Shown piece after piece: positions 36,796 through 42,976 of a stretch of DNA of 64,000 nucleotides. Position numbers and translations under genes: made by a program. Each line of letters starts with the position of its first letter. The first letter of the stretch is position 1. The notes under the pieces are model-generated. The model saw only the letters and a program-made list of their open reading frames with translations, did no database searches and had not been told where the DNA came from. Source of the stretch: Pseudomonas sp. HOU2 (GTDB lineage Bacteria > Pseudomonadota > Gammaproteobacteria > Pseudomonadales > Pseudomonadaceae); contig NZ_CP160398.1 of NCBI RefSeq assembly GCF_040729435.1, forward strand, positions 2,356,001-2,420,000, read 5' to 3'.

Positions 36796-36864
36796 CTCCG
36801 TTGCGTGCAGGATCCGATTGGATCCAAGCAAGCACCCCCGAAAACAACTCATGGAGAGTTTGTG

Positions 36865-37593
36865 ATGGAAATGTGGAAGGAGTCGCAATTAAAGCAACTG
36901 ACTTTCGCAAGAGAAATAGAGACCGCTTATCCGATCCTGCTGCGATTCGCTCAAAATATTGGGTTCAATTTTTGTGCTATCTCATTAACATCAATGAATC
37001 GGAACGCTGACTTCAAAGCCTTGCAAATCAATAACTATCCGATGGAGTGGAATCAACTTTATGAAAAACAGTGCTACAGCAAAATCGATCCGGTAATAGC
37101 ACACTGCAATCACTCGATGCTGCCGATTGTCTGGACCGAGGACGTGTTCTCGCAGACCCTGCTGCTATGGGGTGCCCAACAGAAACATGGGTTGCGCCAC
37201 GGCTGGTCGCAGTCGTTTCACCATGAAGCCAGCGGCCTGTGCAGCACGCTCAGCCTTGTCAGAAAAAATGGCCCACTGAGCCCGCTGGAGTTGTACGAGC
37301 ATTTTGGCTACATGTTTTACGCAACCAGCCATCTGAGCGATCTGTTCGCCAGAACCTTGCCCAGAGCACCGAAAAAGCCGCAGCACCCGCACCTCTCACC
37401 ACGTGAACTGGAAGTGTTGAAGCTCTCGGCGCTCGGCAAAACGGCCTATGAAATCGCCAGAATCCTCTGCCTGAGCGAACGGACCGTGAATTACCACGTG
37501 CAAAACGTGATTATCAAACTGAACGTCTGTAACAAGATTTCGGCGGTCATCGCTGCCAGCCGCTGTGGCCTTCTCGATGCCCCGATCGCCTAA
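36865..37593 (+). CDS. LuxR-family quorum-sensing regulator without a partner synthase
   Basis: 242-residue regulator with an N-terminal autoinducer-binding domain (about 15-165) and a C-terminal GerE helix-turn-helix (LSPRELEVLKLSALGKTAYE, ILCLSERTVNYHVQNVIIKL). Counterparts of the six acyl-homoserine-lactone pocket residues are present: W62, Y66, D75, P76, W90 and G113. So it should bind an acyl-homoserine lactone rather than a plant signal. ATG 36865 follows GGAGAG. No luxI-type gene is in the window. AT content is higher here than in its neighbours, suggesting acquisition. Confidence 0.87.
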   Translation: MEMWKESQLKQLTFAREIETAYPILLRFAQNIGFNFCAISLTSMNRNADFKALQINNYPMEWNQLYEKQCYSKIDPVIAHCNHSMLPIVWTEDVFSQTLLLWGAQQKHGLRHGWSQSFHHEASGLCSTLSLVRKNGPLSPLELYEHFGYMFYATSHLSDLFARTLPRAPKKPQHPHLSPRELEVLKLSALGKTAYEIARILCLSERTVNYHVQNVIIKLNVCNKISAVIAASRCGLLDAPIA

Positions 37594-37743: not shown

Positions 37744-38868
37744 ATGCCCTTGCTCGATACGCCCTTCGCCCAACTCGACCTGATCCGTCAGCCAGAACAG
37801 CAGAACGAACCGCTGCAAGCGTTCGACGCGGCTGACGAATACCTGCTCAATCATCTGGCCGCGCAGCAACCGACGGCAGACACCCGGGTATTGGTACTCA
37901 ATGACAGCTTCGGAGCGTTGGCGGCAAGTCTGGCGGGCAAGGTACAGGTCAGCAGCAGTGGCGACTCGTTTCTCGCATTCCAGGGGCTGGAAAAGAACCT
38001 GGTACGCAACGGCCTGGCATTTGATGCGGTGCGCGGGATTGCGGCCAGTGAGCCGTTGGTCGGACCGTTCGACCGAGTGCTGATCCGCGTCCCCAAGACG
38101 CTGGCATTGCTGGAAGAACAACTGATTCGCCTGCAAGGGCAACTGGCACCTGGCGCCGAAGTGGTGGCAGCGGCCATGGTCAAGCATTTGCCGCGTGCTG
38201 CCGGTGATCTGCTGGAGCGTTACATCGGTCCGGTACAGGCCTCACTGGCGGTGAAAAAGGCGCGCCTGCTGATCGCCACGCCCGAGGCCAAAGCCCCGGC
38301 GACCTCGCCCTATCCTTCGCGTTACCAACTCGACGAGCCGGCCATCGAATTGCTCAACCACGCCAACGTGTTCTGCCGTGAAGGTCTGGACATCGGCACC
38401 CGAGCCTTTCTCCCACACCTGCCAAAAAACCTCGGCAGCGCCCGCGTCGCCGACCTCGGCTGCGGTAACGGCGTACTGGCCATCGCCAGTGCCCTGCACA
38501 ACCCTGAGGCGCACTACACGCTGGTCGACGAATCGTTCATGGCCGTGCAATCGGCCGCCGAGAACTGGCGTGCCGCGCTGGGCGAGCGCGAAGTGATCGT
38601 GCGGGCCGGCGATGGCCTGGCCGGTCAAGAGCCGCAATCGCTGGACGTGGTGCTGTGCAATCCGCCGTTCCACCAGCAGCAGGTGGTTGGTGACTTCCTC
38701 GCCTGGCGCATGTTCCAACAGGCCCGTGAGGCGCTGGTGGTGGGCGGTGCGCTGTACATCGTCGGCAACCGGCACTTGGGTTATCACAGCAAACTGGCGC
38801 GGCTGTTCCGTGGCGTCGAGCAAGTGGCGGCCACGCCGAAATTCGTGATTCTCAAGGCCCGCAAGTAA
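37744..38868 (+). CDS. rlmG: 23S rRNA (guanine-N2) methyltransferase RlmG
   Basis: 374-residue methyltransferase of the RsmC/RlmG group. The SAM-binding motif is VADLGCGNGVLAIASAL (about 237-253) and the catalytic NPPF sits in LCNPPFHQQQ. The N-terminal half is a degenerate duplicated methyltransferase domain, as in RlmG. It is close in length to the E. coli enzyme that modifies G1835. ATG 37744 is preferred over 37720. Confidence 0.87.
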   Translation: MPLLDTPFAQLDLIRQPEQQNEPLQAFDAADEYLLNHLAAQQPTADTRVLVLNDSFGALAASLAGKVQVSSSGDSFLAFQGLEKNLVRNGLAFDAVRGIAASEPLVGPFDRVLIRVPKTLALLEEQLIRLQGQLAPGAEVVAAAMVKHLPRAAGDLLERYIGPVQASLAVKKARLLIATPEAKAPATSPYPSRYQLDEPAIELLNHANVFCREGLDIGTRAFLPHLPKNLGSARVADLGCGNGVLAIASALHNPEAHYTLVDESFMAVQSAAENWRAALGEREVIVRAGDGLAGQEPQSLDVVLCNPPFHQQQVVGDFLAWRMFQQAREALVVGGALYIVGNRHLGYHSKLARLFRGVEQVAATPKFVILKARK

Positions 38869-38877
38869 AACCTCAGG

Positions 38878-38907
38878 CAAAAAAAACCCTCCGCGGTACA
38901 GAGGGTT
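38878..38907 (-). terminator. terminator of the cio operon tail
   Basis: On the reverse strand AACCCTC ... GAGGGTT is followed by a run of T (A-run 38878-38886 on the plus strand). It lies 35 bases after the DUF2474 gene. The plus-strand side has no T-run, so it is not the main rlmG terminator. Confidence 0.8.
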
Positions 38908-38942
38908 GTAAACCGTGCCCAAGGGCCACGGGACGGGATGTA

Positions 38943-39110
38943 TCAGTGCGTGGTCAAACCGGCCGCGTTCATGAACAGGCGCATCAGGCTGGCGGCAATG
39001 AACAGCGCGCCGACGCTACCGATCCAGATCAGGGCCAACCAGCCGAGCCGCTGCCACAGCGGTTTTTTTTCGGCTTCTTCAATCTCGTGCAGGGAATGTT
39101 TGCCGTTCAT
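38943..39110 (-). CDS. DUF2474 small membrane protein of the cyanide-insensitive oxidase operon
   Basis: 55-residue protein MNGKHSLHEIEEAEKKPLWQ, then a single transmembrane segment (LGWLALIWIGSVGALFIAASL), ending GLTTH. A strong GGAGG lies ten bases before the ATG. Proteins of this DUF2474 type normally follow cioB directly and may play the part of CydX in stabilising the oxidase. Here an IS110-family element separates it from cioB, so expression now depends on read-through of an antisense insertion or on a new promoter. Confidence 0.85.
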   Translation of the reverse strand: MNGKHSLHEIEEAEKKPLWQRLGWLALIWIGSVGALFIAASLMRLFMNAAGLTTH

Positions 39111-39150
39111 TGCATCGTTCCTCCATCAGGCGATGACGTCGCCAAGGACG

Positions 39151-39170
39151 CCATCGCGAGCAGGCTCGCT
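39151..39170. repeat. left half of a REP unit interrupted by the IS element
   Basis: CCATCGCGAGCAGGCTCGCT ends exactly at the element. The missing right half CCCACAGG resumes at 40338-40345. Joining the two restores a canonical REP unit. Confidence 0.85.
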
Positions 39171-39185
39171 TGTATGTTTAGACTT

Positions 39186-39322
39186 GAAGGGGTGGGCGGG
39201 ACTACAGACTCGATTCTGACTCTGACCAGTACAGACCGTGGGAGACTTCTCGTCCCGCCCCTTCTACCCAAAGCGCCAATAAGGAATTCATCGGTAAACC
39301 GACGACAGAGACAAGCCAGCGC
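39186..39322 (+). ncRNA. predicted IS110 bridge RNA
   Basis: Non-coding left end of the element with two loops. Loop 1 is closed by GAAGGGG...GGCGGGAC (39186-39202) and GTCCCGCCCCTTC (39252-39264). It contains CAGACTCGAT (39205-39214, 8 of 10 like the left target CAGGCTCGCT) and GTGGGAG (39238-39244, exact complement of the right target CTCCCAC). Loop 2 is closed by GCGC (39273-39276) and GCGC (39319-39322), with an inner hairpin TCGGTAAACCGA. It contains GGAAT (39283-39287), close to the left donor end AGAAT, and GAGACAAG (39308-39315), 6 of 8 complementary to the right donor CTTGTATG. Ends of the RNA are not determined. Confidence 0.7.
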
Positions 39323-39370
39323 AACGGTAGACCCCAACAAGCTCTTAAACCCTAGCTCCGAGGATTCGTC

Positions 39371-40306
39371 ATGACAATCCTTACTTCGCAGACGGTTGTT
39401 GGTATCGATATCGCCAAGGCCGAAATCGTTGTCTATCGCGCCGACCTGGAAACCATTGAAGCGGTCAAGAATGATCGTGCCGCCCTCAAACGTTGGCTCA
39501 AAACTCTGCCCGCGCAAAGCGCTATCGCTGTCGAAGCCACCAATATCTACCATTTGGAGACTGTTGATCTGGCTCATGCGATGGGACATCAGGTCTATGT
39601 GGTGGATGCTTATCGAGTCAGCCACTATCGTCGCGGTGTCGGTCAGCGAGCCAAAAATGATCCCTGCGATGCACGCGTGCTCGCACGCTATCTGACGAAT
39701 GAACAAAGCAAACTGCGGCTTTGGAACCCGCCTCCTAAAGCCTACACCGTACTGAAAAGCTTGCTGCACAGACGCGCGACGCTGATTCAGAACCATACGG
39801 GTCTGATGTTGAGCTGGGCCGATGAACCCTTGCTGAAGAAAGAACGTACGGCTCAGCAAAAGGCATTCGAGCGATCCGACAAGGTCATTCAAAACCTGCT
39901 GCGCAAAGTCAGCAAAGAGGCCGGTATTGATGACAATATTGGCCGCTGCAAAGCAATCGAGGGCGTGGGAGAGCTGACTGCGACTGGGTTGGCAACGACC
40001 TATATGCGCGGTGACTTTGCCAACAGCGACGCGTTCATCGCGTTTTTGGGTATGGATCTGACGGTGGACGATTCGGGGAAAAAGAACGGCCCGAGGTTCC
40101 TGAGCAAAAAAGGAGATCCGGAGATCCGTCGATTAGCCTACAACGCCGCAATGGCGGCGTGTCGCTCAACCAAGTGGAAGCCTTTTTACGAGTCTTACCT
40201 GGCCAGAGGCTTCTCGAAAACACAGGCATTGGTAGCTCTTGCTCGCAAGCTCTGCCGAGTGGCATTCACCCTGATGAAGAATCAGGGCGAATACCGATCA
40301 ATTTGA
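39371..40306 (+). CDS. IS110-family transposase/recombinase
   Basis: 311-residue recombinase. The N-terminal RuvC-like domain carries the DEDD set D13 (GIDIAK), E55 (VEATN), D97 and D100 (KNDPCDAR), with spacing close to IS621. The C-terminal transposase_20 domain contains IEGVGELTATGLAT and the segment SGKKNGPRFLSKKGDPEIRR (from residue 235), in the region where the catalytic serine of the family is expected. Length is complete and the frame is uninterrupted, so it may be active. It is oriented against the flanking cio genes. Confidence 0.95.
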   Translation: MTILTSQTVVGIDIAKAEIVVYRADLETIEAVKNDRAALKRWLKTLPAQSAIAVEATNIYHLETVDLAHAMGHQVYVVDAYRVSHYRRGVGQRAKNDPCDARVLARYLTNEQSKLRLWNPPPKAYTVLKSLLHRRATLIQNHTGLMLSWADEPLLKKERTAQQKAFERSDKVIQNLLRKVSKEAGIDDNIGRCKAIEGVGELTATGLATTYMRGDFANSDAFIAFLGMDLTVDDSGKKNGPRFLSKKGDPEIRRLAYNAAMAACRSTKWKPFYESYLARGFSKTQALVALARKLCRVAFTLMKNQGEYRSI

Positions 40307-40337
40307 GATTCTAGGGTTGCTGAGCAACATAGAATCT
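40306..40337 (+). terminator. right-end hairpin of the IS element
   Basis: AGATTCTAGGGTTGC TGA GCAACATAGAATCT pairs along nearly its whole length and ends exactly at the CT core. It may end transposase transcription and also mark the right end. There is no T-run. Confidence 0.6.
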
Positions 40338-40361
40338 CCCACAGGTGAGCAGAGCGAGAGA

Positions 40362-41369
40362 TCAGTGGTAACCGTCTTCATGGGTGACCTTGCCGCGGAA
40401 CACGTAGTAGCTCCAGAAGGTGTAACCCAGGATGAACGGGATGATGAACAGCGTGCCGACCAGCATGAAGCCCTGGCTCTGCGGCGGTGCGGCGGCGTCC
40501 CAGATCGAGATCGACGGCGGCACGATGTTCGGCCACAGGCTGATGCCCAGACCGCTGTAACCGAGGAAGATCAGCACCAGGGTCAGCAGGAACGGCATGT
40601 AGTTGGCGTTGCGCGCCACCGCGCGAATCAAGCCGTACAGCGTTACCAGCACCAGAATCGGTACCGGCATGAACCAGAACAGGTTCGGCATGCTGAACCA
40701 GCGTGTGGCGATTTCCGGGTGAGCCAGCGGTGTCCACAGACTGACGATGCCGATCACCGCCAGCAGCACGAACGCCAGCGGTCGCGCGAGGTTGTGCATC
40801 TGCTCCTGCAACTTGCCTTCGGTCTTCATGATCAGCCAGGTGCAACCGAGCAAGGCATAGGCCACCACCAGCGCGGCGCCGCAGAACAGAGTGAACGGTG
40901 TCAGCCAATCCAGTGAACCGCCGGCGTATTGCCGATTGACCACCGGCAAACCGTCGATGAAGGCCCCGAGTGCCACGCCCTGGAAGAACGTCGCCGCCAC
41001 CGAGCCGCCGATGAACGCTTTGTCCCACAGGTGGCGTTTGTCGTCCTTAGCCTTGAAGCGGAACTCGAACGCCACACCGCGGAAAATCAGGCCGATCAGC
41101 ATGAAGATCAGCGGCAGGTACAGCGCCGACAGCACTACCGAATAGGCCAGCGGGAACGCGCCGAACAACGCCGCGCCGCCCAATACCAGCCAGGTTTCAT
41201 TGCCGTCCCACACCGGAGCGACGGTGTTCATCATCACGTCACGGTCGGTCTTGCCCGGGATGAACGGGAAGAGAATCCCGATCCCCAGGTCAAAACCGTC
41301 CATGACCACGTACATCATGATGCCGAAGATGATGATCACGGCCCAGATCAGCGGAAGATCAATACCCAT
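40362..41369 (-). CDS. cioB: cyanide-insensitive quinol oxidase subunit II
   Basis: 335-residue membrane subunit of a bd-type quinol oxidase (CydB family), with about eight hydrophobic segments. Conserved segments include VVMDGFDLGIGILFPF, VWDGNETWLVLGGAALFGAFP and RGVAFEFRFK. With CioA it reduces oxygen from quinol without a haem-copper centre and resists cyanide. It starts three bases after the cioA stop, so translation is coupled. The IS element begins 24 bases downstream of its stop. Confidence 0.94.
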   Translation of the reverse strand: MGIDLPLIWAVIIIFGIMMYVVMDGFDLGIGILFPFIPGKTDRDVMMNTVAPVWDGNETWLVLGGAALFGAFPLAYSVVLSALYLPLIFMLIGLIFRGVAFEFRFKAKDDKRHLWDKAFIGGSVAATFFQGVALGAFIDGLPVVNRQYAGGSLDWLTPFTLFCGAALVVAYALLGCTWLIMKTEGKLQEQMHNLARPLAFVLLAVIGIVSLWTPLAHPEIATRWFSMPNLFWFMPVPILVLVTLYGLIRAVARNANYMPFLLTLVLIFLGYSGLGISLWPNIVPPSISIWDAAAPPQSQGFMLVGTLFIIPFILGYTFWSYYVFRGKVTHEDGYH

Positions 41370-41372
41370 GAG

Positions 41373-42815
41373 TCAAATCTCCTTTTCCAGGCTGCGATGC
41401 GAACCAGCGTCAGTGCCCTCGTCATCGGCGGCGGACAACGGCCGAGCCGGTGTGCGTTTCTGGCCAGGACCACCGTCGTTGGTTTCCTTGCCTTCGTCGG
41501 TTTTCGGTCCTTTGCGCACCAGACGCATCATGTAGCCGAGCCCCGCACCGAACAGCGCGAAATACACCACGACAAACATGATCAGGGTGATGCTCATCTG
41601 CATGAAGCTGTGGTTGGACGAAGCATCCGCCGTGCGCATCAGCCCGTAGACCACCCACGGCTGACGACCGATTTCAGTGGTGAACCAGCCGGCGAGGATC
41701 GCGACCAGGCCGGACGGCCCCATCCACAGCGCCAGATACAGGAACGGCCGCGAGGTGTAGAGCGAATCGCGCTTGCGCAGCCACAGGCTCCACAGACCGG
41801 TGAAAATCATCAGGAAGCCGAGGCCGACCATGACCCGGAACGACCAGAACACGATGGTCGAATTCGGCCGGTCTTCAGGCGGGAACTCCTTGAGTGCCGG
41901 CACCTGCTTGTCCAGCGAGTGGGTCAGGATCAGGCTGCCGAGGTAGGGGATTTCCACGGCGAACTTGGTTTTCTCTTCCTTCATGTCCGGCCAGCCGAAC
42001 AGAATCAACGGGGTCGCTTCGTTGCCTTTGTTTTCCCAGTGACCTTCGATCGCGGCGATTTTCGCCGGCTGATGCTCAAGGGTATTGAGGCCGTGGAAGT
42101 CACCGATAACCGCCTGGATCGGCGCGACGATTAGCGCCATCCACATCGCCATCGACAACATGGTGCGGATCGCCGGGTTGTCCTTGCCGCGCAGCAGGTG
42201 CCAGGCCGCCGACGAGCCAACGAAGAACGCCGTGGCGACGAACGCAGCAGTGGCCATGTGCATCAGGCGATAGGGGAACGACGGGTTGAAGACGATGGCC
42301 AGCCAGTCGGTCGGGATCACTTGACCGTTGACGATCTCGAAGCCTTGCGGGGTCTGCATCCAGCTGTTGGAAGCGAGAATCCAGAATGTCGAGATCAGCG
42401 TGCCGATCGCTACCATCACTGTGGAGAAGAAGTGCAGTTTGCGTCCGACCTTGTTCCAGCCGAACAGCATCACCCCGAGGAAACCGGCTTCGAGGAAGAA
42501 TGCCGTGAGCACCTCGTAGGTCAGCAATGGTCCGGTGACGGAGCCGGCGAAGTCCGAGAAACGACTCCAGTTGGTACCGAACTGGTAGGCCATGACCAGA
42601 CCGGAGACCACACCCATGCCGAAGTTGACGGCAAAGATCTTCGACCAGAAGTGGTAGAGGTCCCGGTAGGTGTCGTTATGGGTTTTCAACCACAGCCCTT
42701 CGAGCACCGCCAGGTAGCTCGCCAGACCAATGGTGATGGCCGGGAACAGGATGTGGAACGAGATGGTGAACGCGAACTGAATTCGGGCGAGATCGAGTGC
42801 CTCTAAACCGAACAT
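41373..42815 (-). CDS. cioA: cyanide-insensitive quinol oxidase subunit I
   Basis: 480-residue CydA-family subunit carrying the haems. It begins MFGLEALDLARIQFAFTISF with the haem-ligand histidine in FHILFPAITIG. It contains the GRQPW motif (TTEIGRQPWVVYGLMRT) and a short Q loop, the mark of CIO-type rather than E. coli-type bd oxidases. ATG 42815 is chosen over the long upstream frame. An ANR-box palindrome lies 161 bases upstream. The C-terminal tail after the last membrane segment is hydrophilic and variable. Confidence 0.95.
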   Translation of the reverse strand: MFGLEALDLARIQFAFTISFHILFPAITIGLASYLAVLEGLWLKTHNDTYRDLYHFWSKIFAVNFGMGVVSGLVMAYQFGTNWSRFSDFAGSVTGPLLTYEVLTAFFLEAGFLGVMLFGWNKVGRKLHFFSTVMVAIGTLISTFWILASNSWMQTPQGFEIVNGQVIPTDWLAIVFNPSFPYRLMHMATAAFVATAFFVGSSAAWHLLRGKDNPAIRTMLSMAMWMALIVAPIQAVIGDFHGLNTLEHQPAKIAAIEGHWENKGNEATPLILFGWPDMKEEKTKFAVEIPYLGSLILTHSLDKQVPALKEFPPEDRPNSTIVFWSFRVMVGLGFLMIFTGLWSLWLRKRDSLYTSRPFLYLALWMGPSGLVAILAGWFTTEIGRQPWVVYGLMRTADASSNHSFMQMSITLIMFVVVYFALFGAGLGYMMRLVRKGPKTDEGKETNDGGPGQKRTPARPLSAADDEGTDAGSHRSLEKEI

Positions 42816-42976
42816 ATGGCTTCCTCTGTCAGGTAATACCGGCATTGGGGCTTGTGGCCCCTGCCTACTGCCCCCACGGATATCGAGTGCGGCGAATTCT
42901 GATTCGTTCTTTTTAATAACCATCGCAACGCAGGGAGTCTGGCCATCGGGCCACCAGACCATGGCCCGCGAGGGTC

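Follow-up and report, generated by a model that had tools for sequence, protein, structure and literature searches.

Bridge RNAs of IS110 elements are known, and guide-target covariation has been reported across thousands of elements (PMC11208160). The RNAs are programmable. In IS621 of E. coli, as set out in PMC11208158, the right guides are followed by bases that, in strand exchange, pair with position 7 of the donor and of the target. That IS110 elements of Pseudomonas target REPs was described in 2006 (PMC1525189). According to that account, ISPpu10 and ISPpu9 of P. putida KT2440, which share family and target with the element studied here, belong to the IS110 family, have all their copies (7 of 7 for each) in REPs and show a 2-bp repeat where they are inserted. 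Bridge RNAs were predicted in PMC11208160 for a set of six elements that includes ISPpu10, and a prediction is given for ISPa11 as well. ISPpu9 differs in having other small RNAs, Asr9 and Ssr9 (PMC8450116). In ISEc21 and ISMch6 an upstream non-coding RNA (seekRNA) guides the IS110 element, and ISMch6 offers a published natural redirection through altered guide bases, in a close pair (PMC11187229).

We analyzed a 64,000-nucleotide stretch of DNA from Pseudomonas sp. HOU2 (the window), in which an IS110-group element interrupts a REP. The original prediction, made from this one copy, was that the element encodes a bridge RNA that reads its REP target. The target half of that claim held, through covariation among relatives and a control for REP composition; the donor half is plausible. 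We are highly confident in the reading as a whole, that of an IS110-group element whose bridge RNA would select the REP variant, which draws in part on IS621.

Results

The element and its insertion site

By its sequence, the element at 39171-40335 (+ strand, 1165 bp) is an autonomous IS110-group insertion sequence. It begins with TGTATG, ends with TAGAAT and has CT outside both ends, boundaries given by seven copies in differing flanks and by an empty site in genome G254. On the same strand, the left half of the interrupted REP (39152-39170, CATCGCGAGCAGGCTCGCT) holds the left target AGGCTCG (39162-39168) and the core CT (39169-39170), as in the uninterrupted homologous site in G254; the core CT and the right target CCCACAG lie beyond the right end (40336-40344, +). 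The non-coding left end (39171-39370, +, 200 bp) starts with the right donor TGTAT (39171-39175, +) and holds the predicted bridge RNA. The recombinase gene (39371-40306, +, 311 aa) is followed by a right end of 29 bp (40307-40335, +) whose terminal ATAGAAT is the left donor. The left end is thus the longer one and the non-coding stretch lies upstream of the gene, as in the IS110 group. Membership in the IS1111 group, in which the guide region is downstream of the gene, was ruled out by a right end of just 29 bp.

The recombinase had a DEDD RuvC-like domain (PF01548) and a Tnp domain (PF02371), both above cut-off, and also scored above the cut-off of NCBIfam NF033542, 'IS110 family RNA-guided transposase'. 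By sequence (phmmer), its best match in the PDB was ISCro4 (9t56, E 1.2e-18), a likeness taken from the protein, followed by IS621 (E 3.4e-18). A serine in the Tnp domain, a candidate for the catalytic one, aligned with a serine of ISCro4. Rfam gave no bridge-RNA family in 38500-41500 at E up to 1, the sole sub-threshold match being located elsewhere, and nothing at gathering thresholds for the loci of five relatives. A sigma-70 scan of 39100-40400, which covered the integrated form, found no promoter within the integrated element.

The element is flanked on the minus strand by a 55-aa DUF2474 gene (38943-39110) and by cytochrome bd oxidase genes (40362-42962; subunit II, PF02322, and subunit I, PF01654). 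Because it lies between these same-strand genes, it may separate the small protein gene from the operon; G254 has no element at this place. Further upstream is a LuxR-type regulator with an autoinducer-binding domain (36805-37593, +).

All copies in the genome were at one point in REPs. The genome (6.05 Mb, one contig) contains nine IS110-type genes. Seven belong to copies of the window element, six of which show 2 to 5 differences from the one in the window; the remaining two are those of a sister element present in two copies. Each of the seven copies lies between ...GCT and CTCCCAC..., preceded by TCGCGAGCA, then G or A, then GCTCGCT, and followed by CTCCCACA. The CT core flanks both sides in all seven, with no further target duplication, in agreement with the empty site. 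At that site, the corresponding chromosomal position in the near relative G254, the element is absent and the core occurs once (GCTCTCACAG). The reading of uninterrupted sites covered L140 (G254), which was clear, and L142 (G214), which was element-free with a shortened REP; L141, L143 and L144 were left out as the anchor was not found.

The sister element occupied a different REP variant. Both of its copies are preceded by CGCTGGCAAGCCAGCT and followed by CTCCCACA. Protein identity to the window element was 51% (best tblastn segment), and the left ends were 77-78% identical over about 185 bases. The sister guide has CAG where the window element has TCG, and the sister occupies the CAG variant: guide ...CCAG in sites ...CCAG, versus guide ...CTCG in sites ...CTCG.

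Guide matches in the single copy

The predicted target-binding loop spans 39186-39264 (+), with a stem of 39186-39202 with 39252-39264 and an inner hairpin at 39215-39235. It holds the left target guide AGACTCG (39206-39212, +, positions 1-7), identified by covariation and by the REP-abundance test below, then AT opposite the core (39213-39214, +), and the right target guide GTGGGAG (39238-39244, +) with a handshake-type base, A, at 39245. The predicted donor-binding loop (39266-39329, +) is closed by GCGC (39273-39276) with GCGC (39319-39322) around a hairpin at about 39292-39301. Its putative left donor guide, AAGGAAT (39281-39287, +), matches GAAT of the right terminus, and its putative right donor guide, ACAAG (39311-39315, +), is the complement of CTTGT and is followed by a handshake-type C at 39316; neither was significant alone.

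The strings originally claimed for the two loops were all at their positions. As claimed, CAGACTCGAT (39205-39214) is like the left target CAGGCTCGCT at 8 of 10 positions and GTGGGAG is exactly complementary to CTCCCAC; on the donor side, GGAAT (39283-39287) agrees with the donor end AGAAT at 4 of 5, and GAGACAAG (39308-39315) with the complement of the donor end CTTGTATG at 6 of 8. The target guide pair occurred in order in 4 of 20,000 dinucleotide-preserving shuffles of 39186-39322, the donor guide pair in 5,526 (28%), and all four guides in none. Because the donor pair is so common in shuffles, the donor half gives no evidence when taken from one copy. One copy sufficed for a good observation of the target half, not of the donor half.

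Predicted structure of the left end

The two-loop organization was conserved. It was present in 43 of the 44 distinct left ends, the exception being G091, which has no second loop. That left end (L041) is 125 nt long, with the donor-binding loop wholly absent and a guide fit of 3 of 7, and is probably a decayed copy. In the window, the first loop (39186-39267) folded better than shuffled sequences (z -3.25; 1 of 200 as good), the second (39268-39340) no better (z -0.75; 44 of 200), and the whole 200-nt left end only somewhat better (z -1.96; 6 of 200). In the minimum-energy folds the two target guides partly pair with each other within the first loop, leaving the guide bases not all free.

We aligned 37 of the 44 distinct left ends, excluding G091, for want of the second loop, and L046, L104, L108, L111, L114 and L123, which are near-identical to others. 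From this alignment RNAalifold predicted an outer stem, the hairpin of the target loop along with part of that loop's stem, and a donor-loop stem. Of 30 predicted pairs, 3 had changed on both sides. In the consensus, part of the right target guide, which the loop model would leave free, is paired to nearby 3' bases, and the stem alignment between the two clades was poor around this guide. Target-loop stem arms gave -21.9 and -23.0 kcal/mol within clades and about -17 if swapped (43 left ends; the hairpin was empty for G000_L001, G216_L022 and G011_L023, where the pattern matched inside the guide). All four GCGC pairs of the donor-loop stem were invariant and hence without covariation; since the donor loop is conserved chiefly in sequence, covariation there is little informative.

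Guides covary with targets among relatives

A search of 398 genomes of the genus gave relatives in 51 (E <= 1e-60, at most 5 candidates scored per genome). Among ten named loci with a gene for a relative, nine were from Pseudomonas and one was a partial match in an Acidobacteria MAG; no relative was found on plasmids at the limits applied. We used 44 of the 51 genomes (leaving out G005, G009, G264, G283, G356, G364 and G390), did not take every listed copy, and scored 128 of 132 listed copies. The four dropped were L020, which duplicates the location of L006; L016 and L017, which lack the left junction and the right end, respectively; and L018, which is too short. L010-L015 and L019 were outside the counts.

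The left guide tracked the left target. Mean agreement over the 128 copies and 21 guides was 6.00 of 7, versus 4.71 (sd 0.18) when guides were re-dealt (0 of 10,000 as high), and 6.27 versus 5.27 with G-U pairs counted (0 of 10,000); the guide register was allowed to shift one base, equally in observed and permuted scores. The predicted covariation of guide segments with flanks was therefore borne out, and sites followed the guide against REP abundance (below). Copies with the same guide had like targets with few exceptions, and insertion of same-guide copies into unrelated targets was not the rule. Matches to the donor guides were present and conserved among relatives, and the donor ends themselves were nearly invariant in the relatives used.

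Several copies did not follow a simple reading of the guide. Opposite the CT core, the 21 left guides had AT (12), CA (5), AA (1) and CT (3). In G139/G004, 4 of 5 copies were in AAGCCCC with the guide AAGCCCG, differing at position 7, and in G383/G128, 6 of 8 copies were in AGGCTCG despite the guide AAGCTCG. G213/G066 and G385 fit only partially. G091, L046 and two G214 copies fit poorly, and the left flanks of L046 and G214 were odd or indel-bearing. The AAGCCCC insertions were L025, L058 and L059 (G139) and L026 (G004); position 7 seems tolerated there. At L046 (G186) the left flank is not the left half of a REP, and CTCCCACATTTGGTAGCT is present on both sides, as after rearrangement. Some left guides have an extra U, resembling a bulge: AAGCC-U-AGCT in L035 (G301) and AAGCC-U-CGCT in L017 and L018, with sites readable for G301 and for the left side of L017.

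Site choice is not explained by REP composition

We counted intact REPs of five variants in the 44 genomes; 104 of the 128 copies were in these variants. The window genome had 809: 45 AGGCTCG, 139 AAGCTCG, 117 AAGCCCG, 507 AAGCCAG and 1 AAGCCGG. The window element, whose guide has G at position 2, had 6 of its 7 copies in AGGCTCG, a 5.6% share (45/809; binomial 2e-7), and 1 in AAGCTCG. With 6 of 7 copies in the best-fitting but scarce variant, the REP composition of the host does not explain the match. In G254, both copies were in AGGCTCG (50 of 1284 REPs). The arm make-up of REPs varied strongly among species of the genus, with 822 AGGCTCG in G124, 1430 AAGCTCG in G267 and 592 AAGCCGG in G385.

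Across all genomes, the best-fitting variant held 79 of 104 copies versus 50.9 expected from abundance. Per element-genome group the proportion was 0.73 versus 0.51 (sd 0.04; 0 of 20,000 draws), and with G-U pairs counted the excess was smaller yet persisted (6.57 versus 6.34 of 7; 0 of 20,000); these tests assume independent copies or element-genome groups, which is not fully true. Among copies in ?GCTCG, guide and target agreed at position 2 in 47 of 62 (26 G-G, 21 A-A, 8 A-G and 7 G-A). Eight of the 39 groups were below the abundance expectation (G139, G334, G128, G385, G267, G205, G111 and one guide of G290). The 4 matches of G301 are uninformative because four variants tie as best.

These results bear on whether the recombinase protein alone recognizes the REP palindrome, with the likeness of guide and target reflecting variation shared within host lineages. 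REP targeting was credited to transposases in 2006, in the account of PMC1525189, and REP composition does differ strongly between hosts. Against this, two sister elements in one genome occupy two REP variants, each fitting its own guide, and the use of sites is shifted from REP abundance toward the guide by the excess just given. Moreover, at L133 and L097, which by eye have no REP left arm, 7 and 6 of 7 guide-matched bases are still present. We regard such protein-only targeting as very improbable, and rejected a purely protein-based recognition of the REP hairpin on the within-genome REP-variant test.

The left-end structure might instead chiefly regulate expression of the recombinase, as a leader or antisense RNA. 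Such a role was proposed for ISPpu9, another element of Pseudomonas REPs, for which PMC8450116 describes a long structured leader together with an antisense RNA. Regulation, however, gives no reason for loop bases to track the flanking DNA, and we give regulation in place of guiding just as slight a chance, while a regulatory role could exist beside the guide role. Judging from the guide-target comparisons, the element very probably makes a guide RNA that chooses the REP to be entered.

Right guide and handshake bases

Most elements combined the right guide GTGGGAG with CTCCCAC. In G094, the right guide was CGTAGGAG and 3 of 3 copies were in CT followed by CCTACG. In G080, it was AGTGAGAG and 2 of 2 copies were in CT followed by CCCACT, with one mismatch, though a guide A follows the target T. 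On these sequences, the right guide has altered together with its target in one lineage (G094) and partly in another (G080).

The bases after the right guides were nearly constant. Directly after the right target guide, all 37 aligned left ends have an A, opposite the donor T; 41 of the 43 distinct left ends with a second loop have a C directly after the right donor guide, and target position 7 was G in 122 of 128 copies. The A and C thus fit donor T7 and target G7 in a handshake of the IS621 type, as given in PMC11208158. In G080, a handshake base G occurs with a C at target position 7 (2 of 2 copies; a single event), and in G139/G004 a T, which does not fit, occurs with a target C in 4 of 5 copies. 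The right donor guide was read by eye in five rows (G139, G334, G245 and G385 twice), where the pattern took the hairpin CAAG. We do not claim an IS621-like two-nucleotide AU match on the 5' side of the right donor guide; window copies have AC there, and the AU may belong to a hairpin.

Changes of the guide on the recombinase tree

The guide arm (positions 4-6) had changed at least 15 times on the recombinase tree (46 rows; commonest target arm, 17). Guide and target arms agreed in 37 of 46 rows versus 14.7 when shuffled (maximum 25); guides were labeled by the better register, which slightly favors agreement, and the tree excludes copies whose gene contains stops. Among independent tree pairs, arms CTC and CCC had none in the wrong direction, with numbers too small for significance, and for CCA (2 pairs) some pairings went the wrong way. 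Guide columns had about three times the mean column variability in both clades (0.57 versus 0.18 and 0.97 versus 0.34 bits), and some hairpin-loop columns were as variable as guide columns. Sister elements divided REP variants in the window genome; in G290 two guides were in one variant, which is against division as a general rule.

Discussion

Relatives such as IS621 have already revealed the mechanism, and the window element is a well-supported new example of it, not a system of a new kind. Sequence comparison shows that the element inserts at a CT core within REPs and that the REP variant used follows two short segments in the first loop of the conserved two-loop left end: one resembles the left target, the other complements the right target. 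If the element works as IS621 does, the left end would give rise to an RNA, probably at the highest level when the element is circular, and the DEDD recombinase would bind this RNA; the first loop would base-pair with the REP, the second loop with the joined termini of the element, and recombination would take place at CT.

The element shares with IS621 the IS110 group, the DEDD RuvC and Tnp domains, a left-end guide RNA (predicted here), a target loop before a donor loop, the CT core and the REP target. The right donor CTTGTAT of IS621, taken from residue names in PMC11208158, is also that of the window element. The two differ in that the proteins are distant, with the phmmer match given above, and the left guide of the window lineage mostly mismatches the first core base. 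Going by the description of the IS621 RNA, the predicted outer stem closes the whole RNA in the window element whereas IS621 has a 5' stem-loop, and spacing within the right donor guide may differ. ISEc21 and ISMch6 target IS3-family genes, not REPs, and the redirection described in PMC11187229 is one, in a single copy, versus many changes in the Pseudomonas lineage.

The notable part is what reads as repeated natural rewriting of the target guide, in an unusually clear record. A search of open-license PMC literature on IS110 bridge RNAs and Pseudomonas REPs yielded just the two Nature papers of 2024, and the phrase 'natural retargeting' was not found in an open-license PMC listing on retargeting; other print is possible in both cases. 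The lineage adds 21 natural guides and their sites in close relatives, with the many unused REP variants of each host as a built-in control. This set of natural guides yields mismatch tolerance per position without experiment, and guide-target coevolution becomes directly testable in the Pseudomonas lineage.

The chances seem about even that in the Pseudomonas lineage the target guide has been repeatedly rewritten, in the left arm, in the right guide and once in the handshake base, and that sister elements on one scaffold can split the REP subfamilies of a host. If true, a programmable recombinase would be in continuing coevolution with a family of repeats, and guides and sites would keep a readable record of it.
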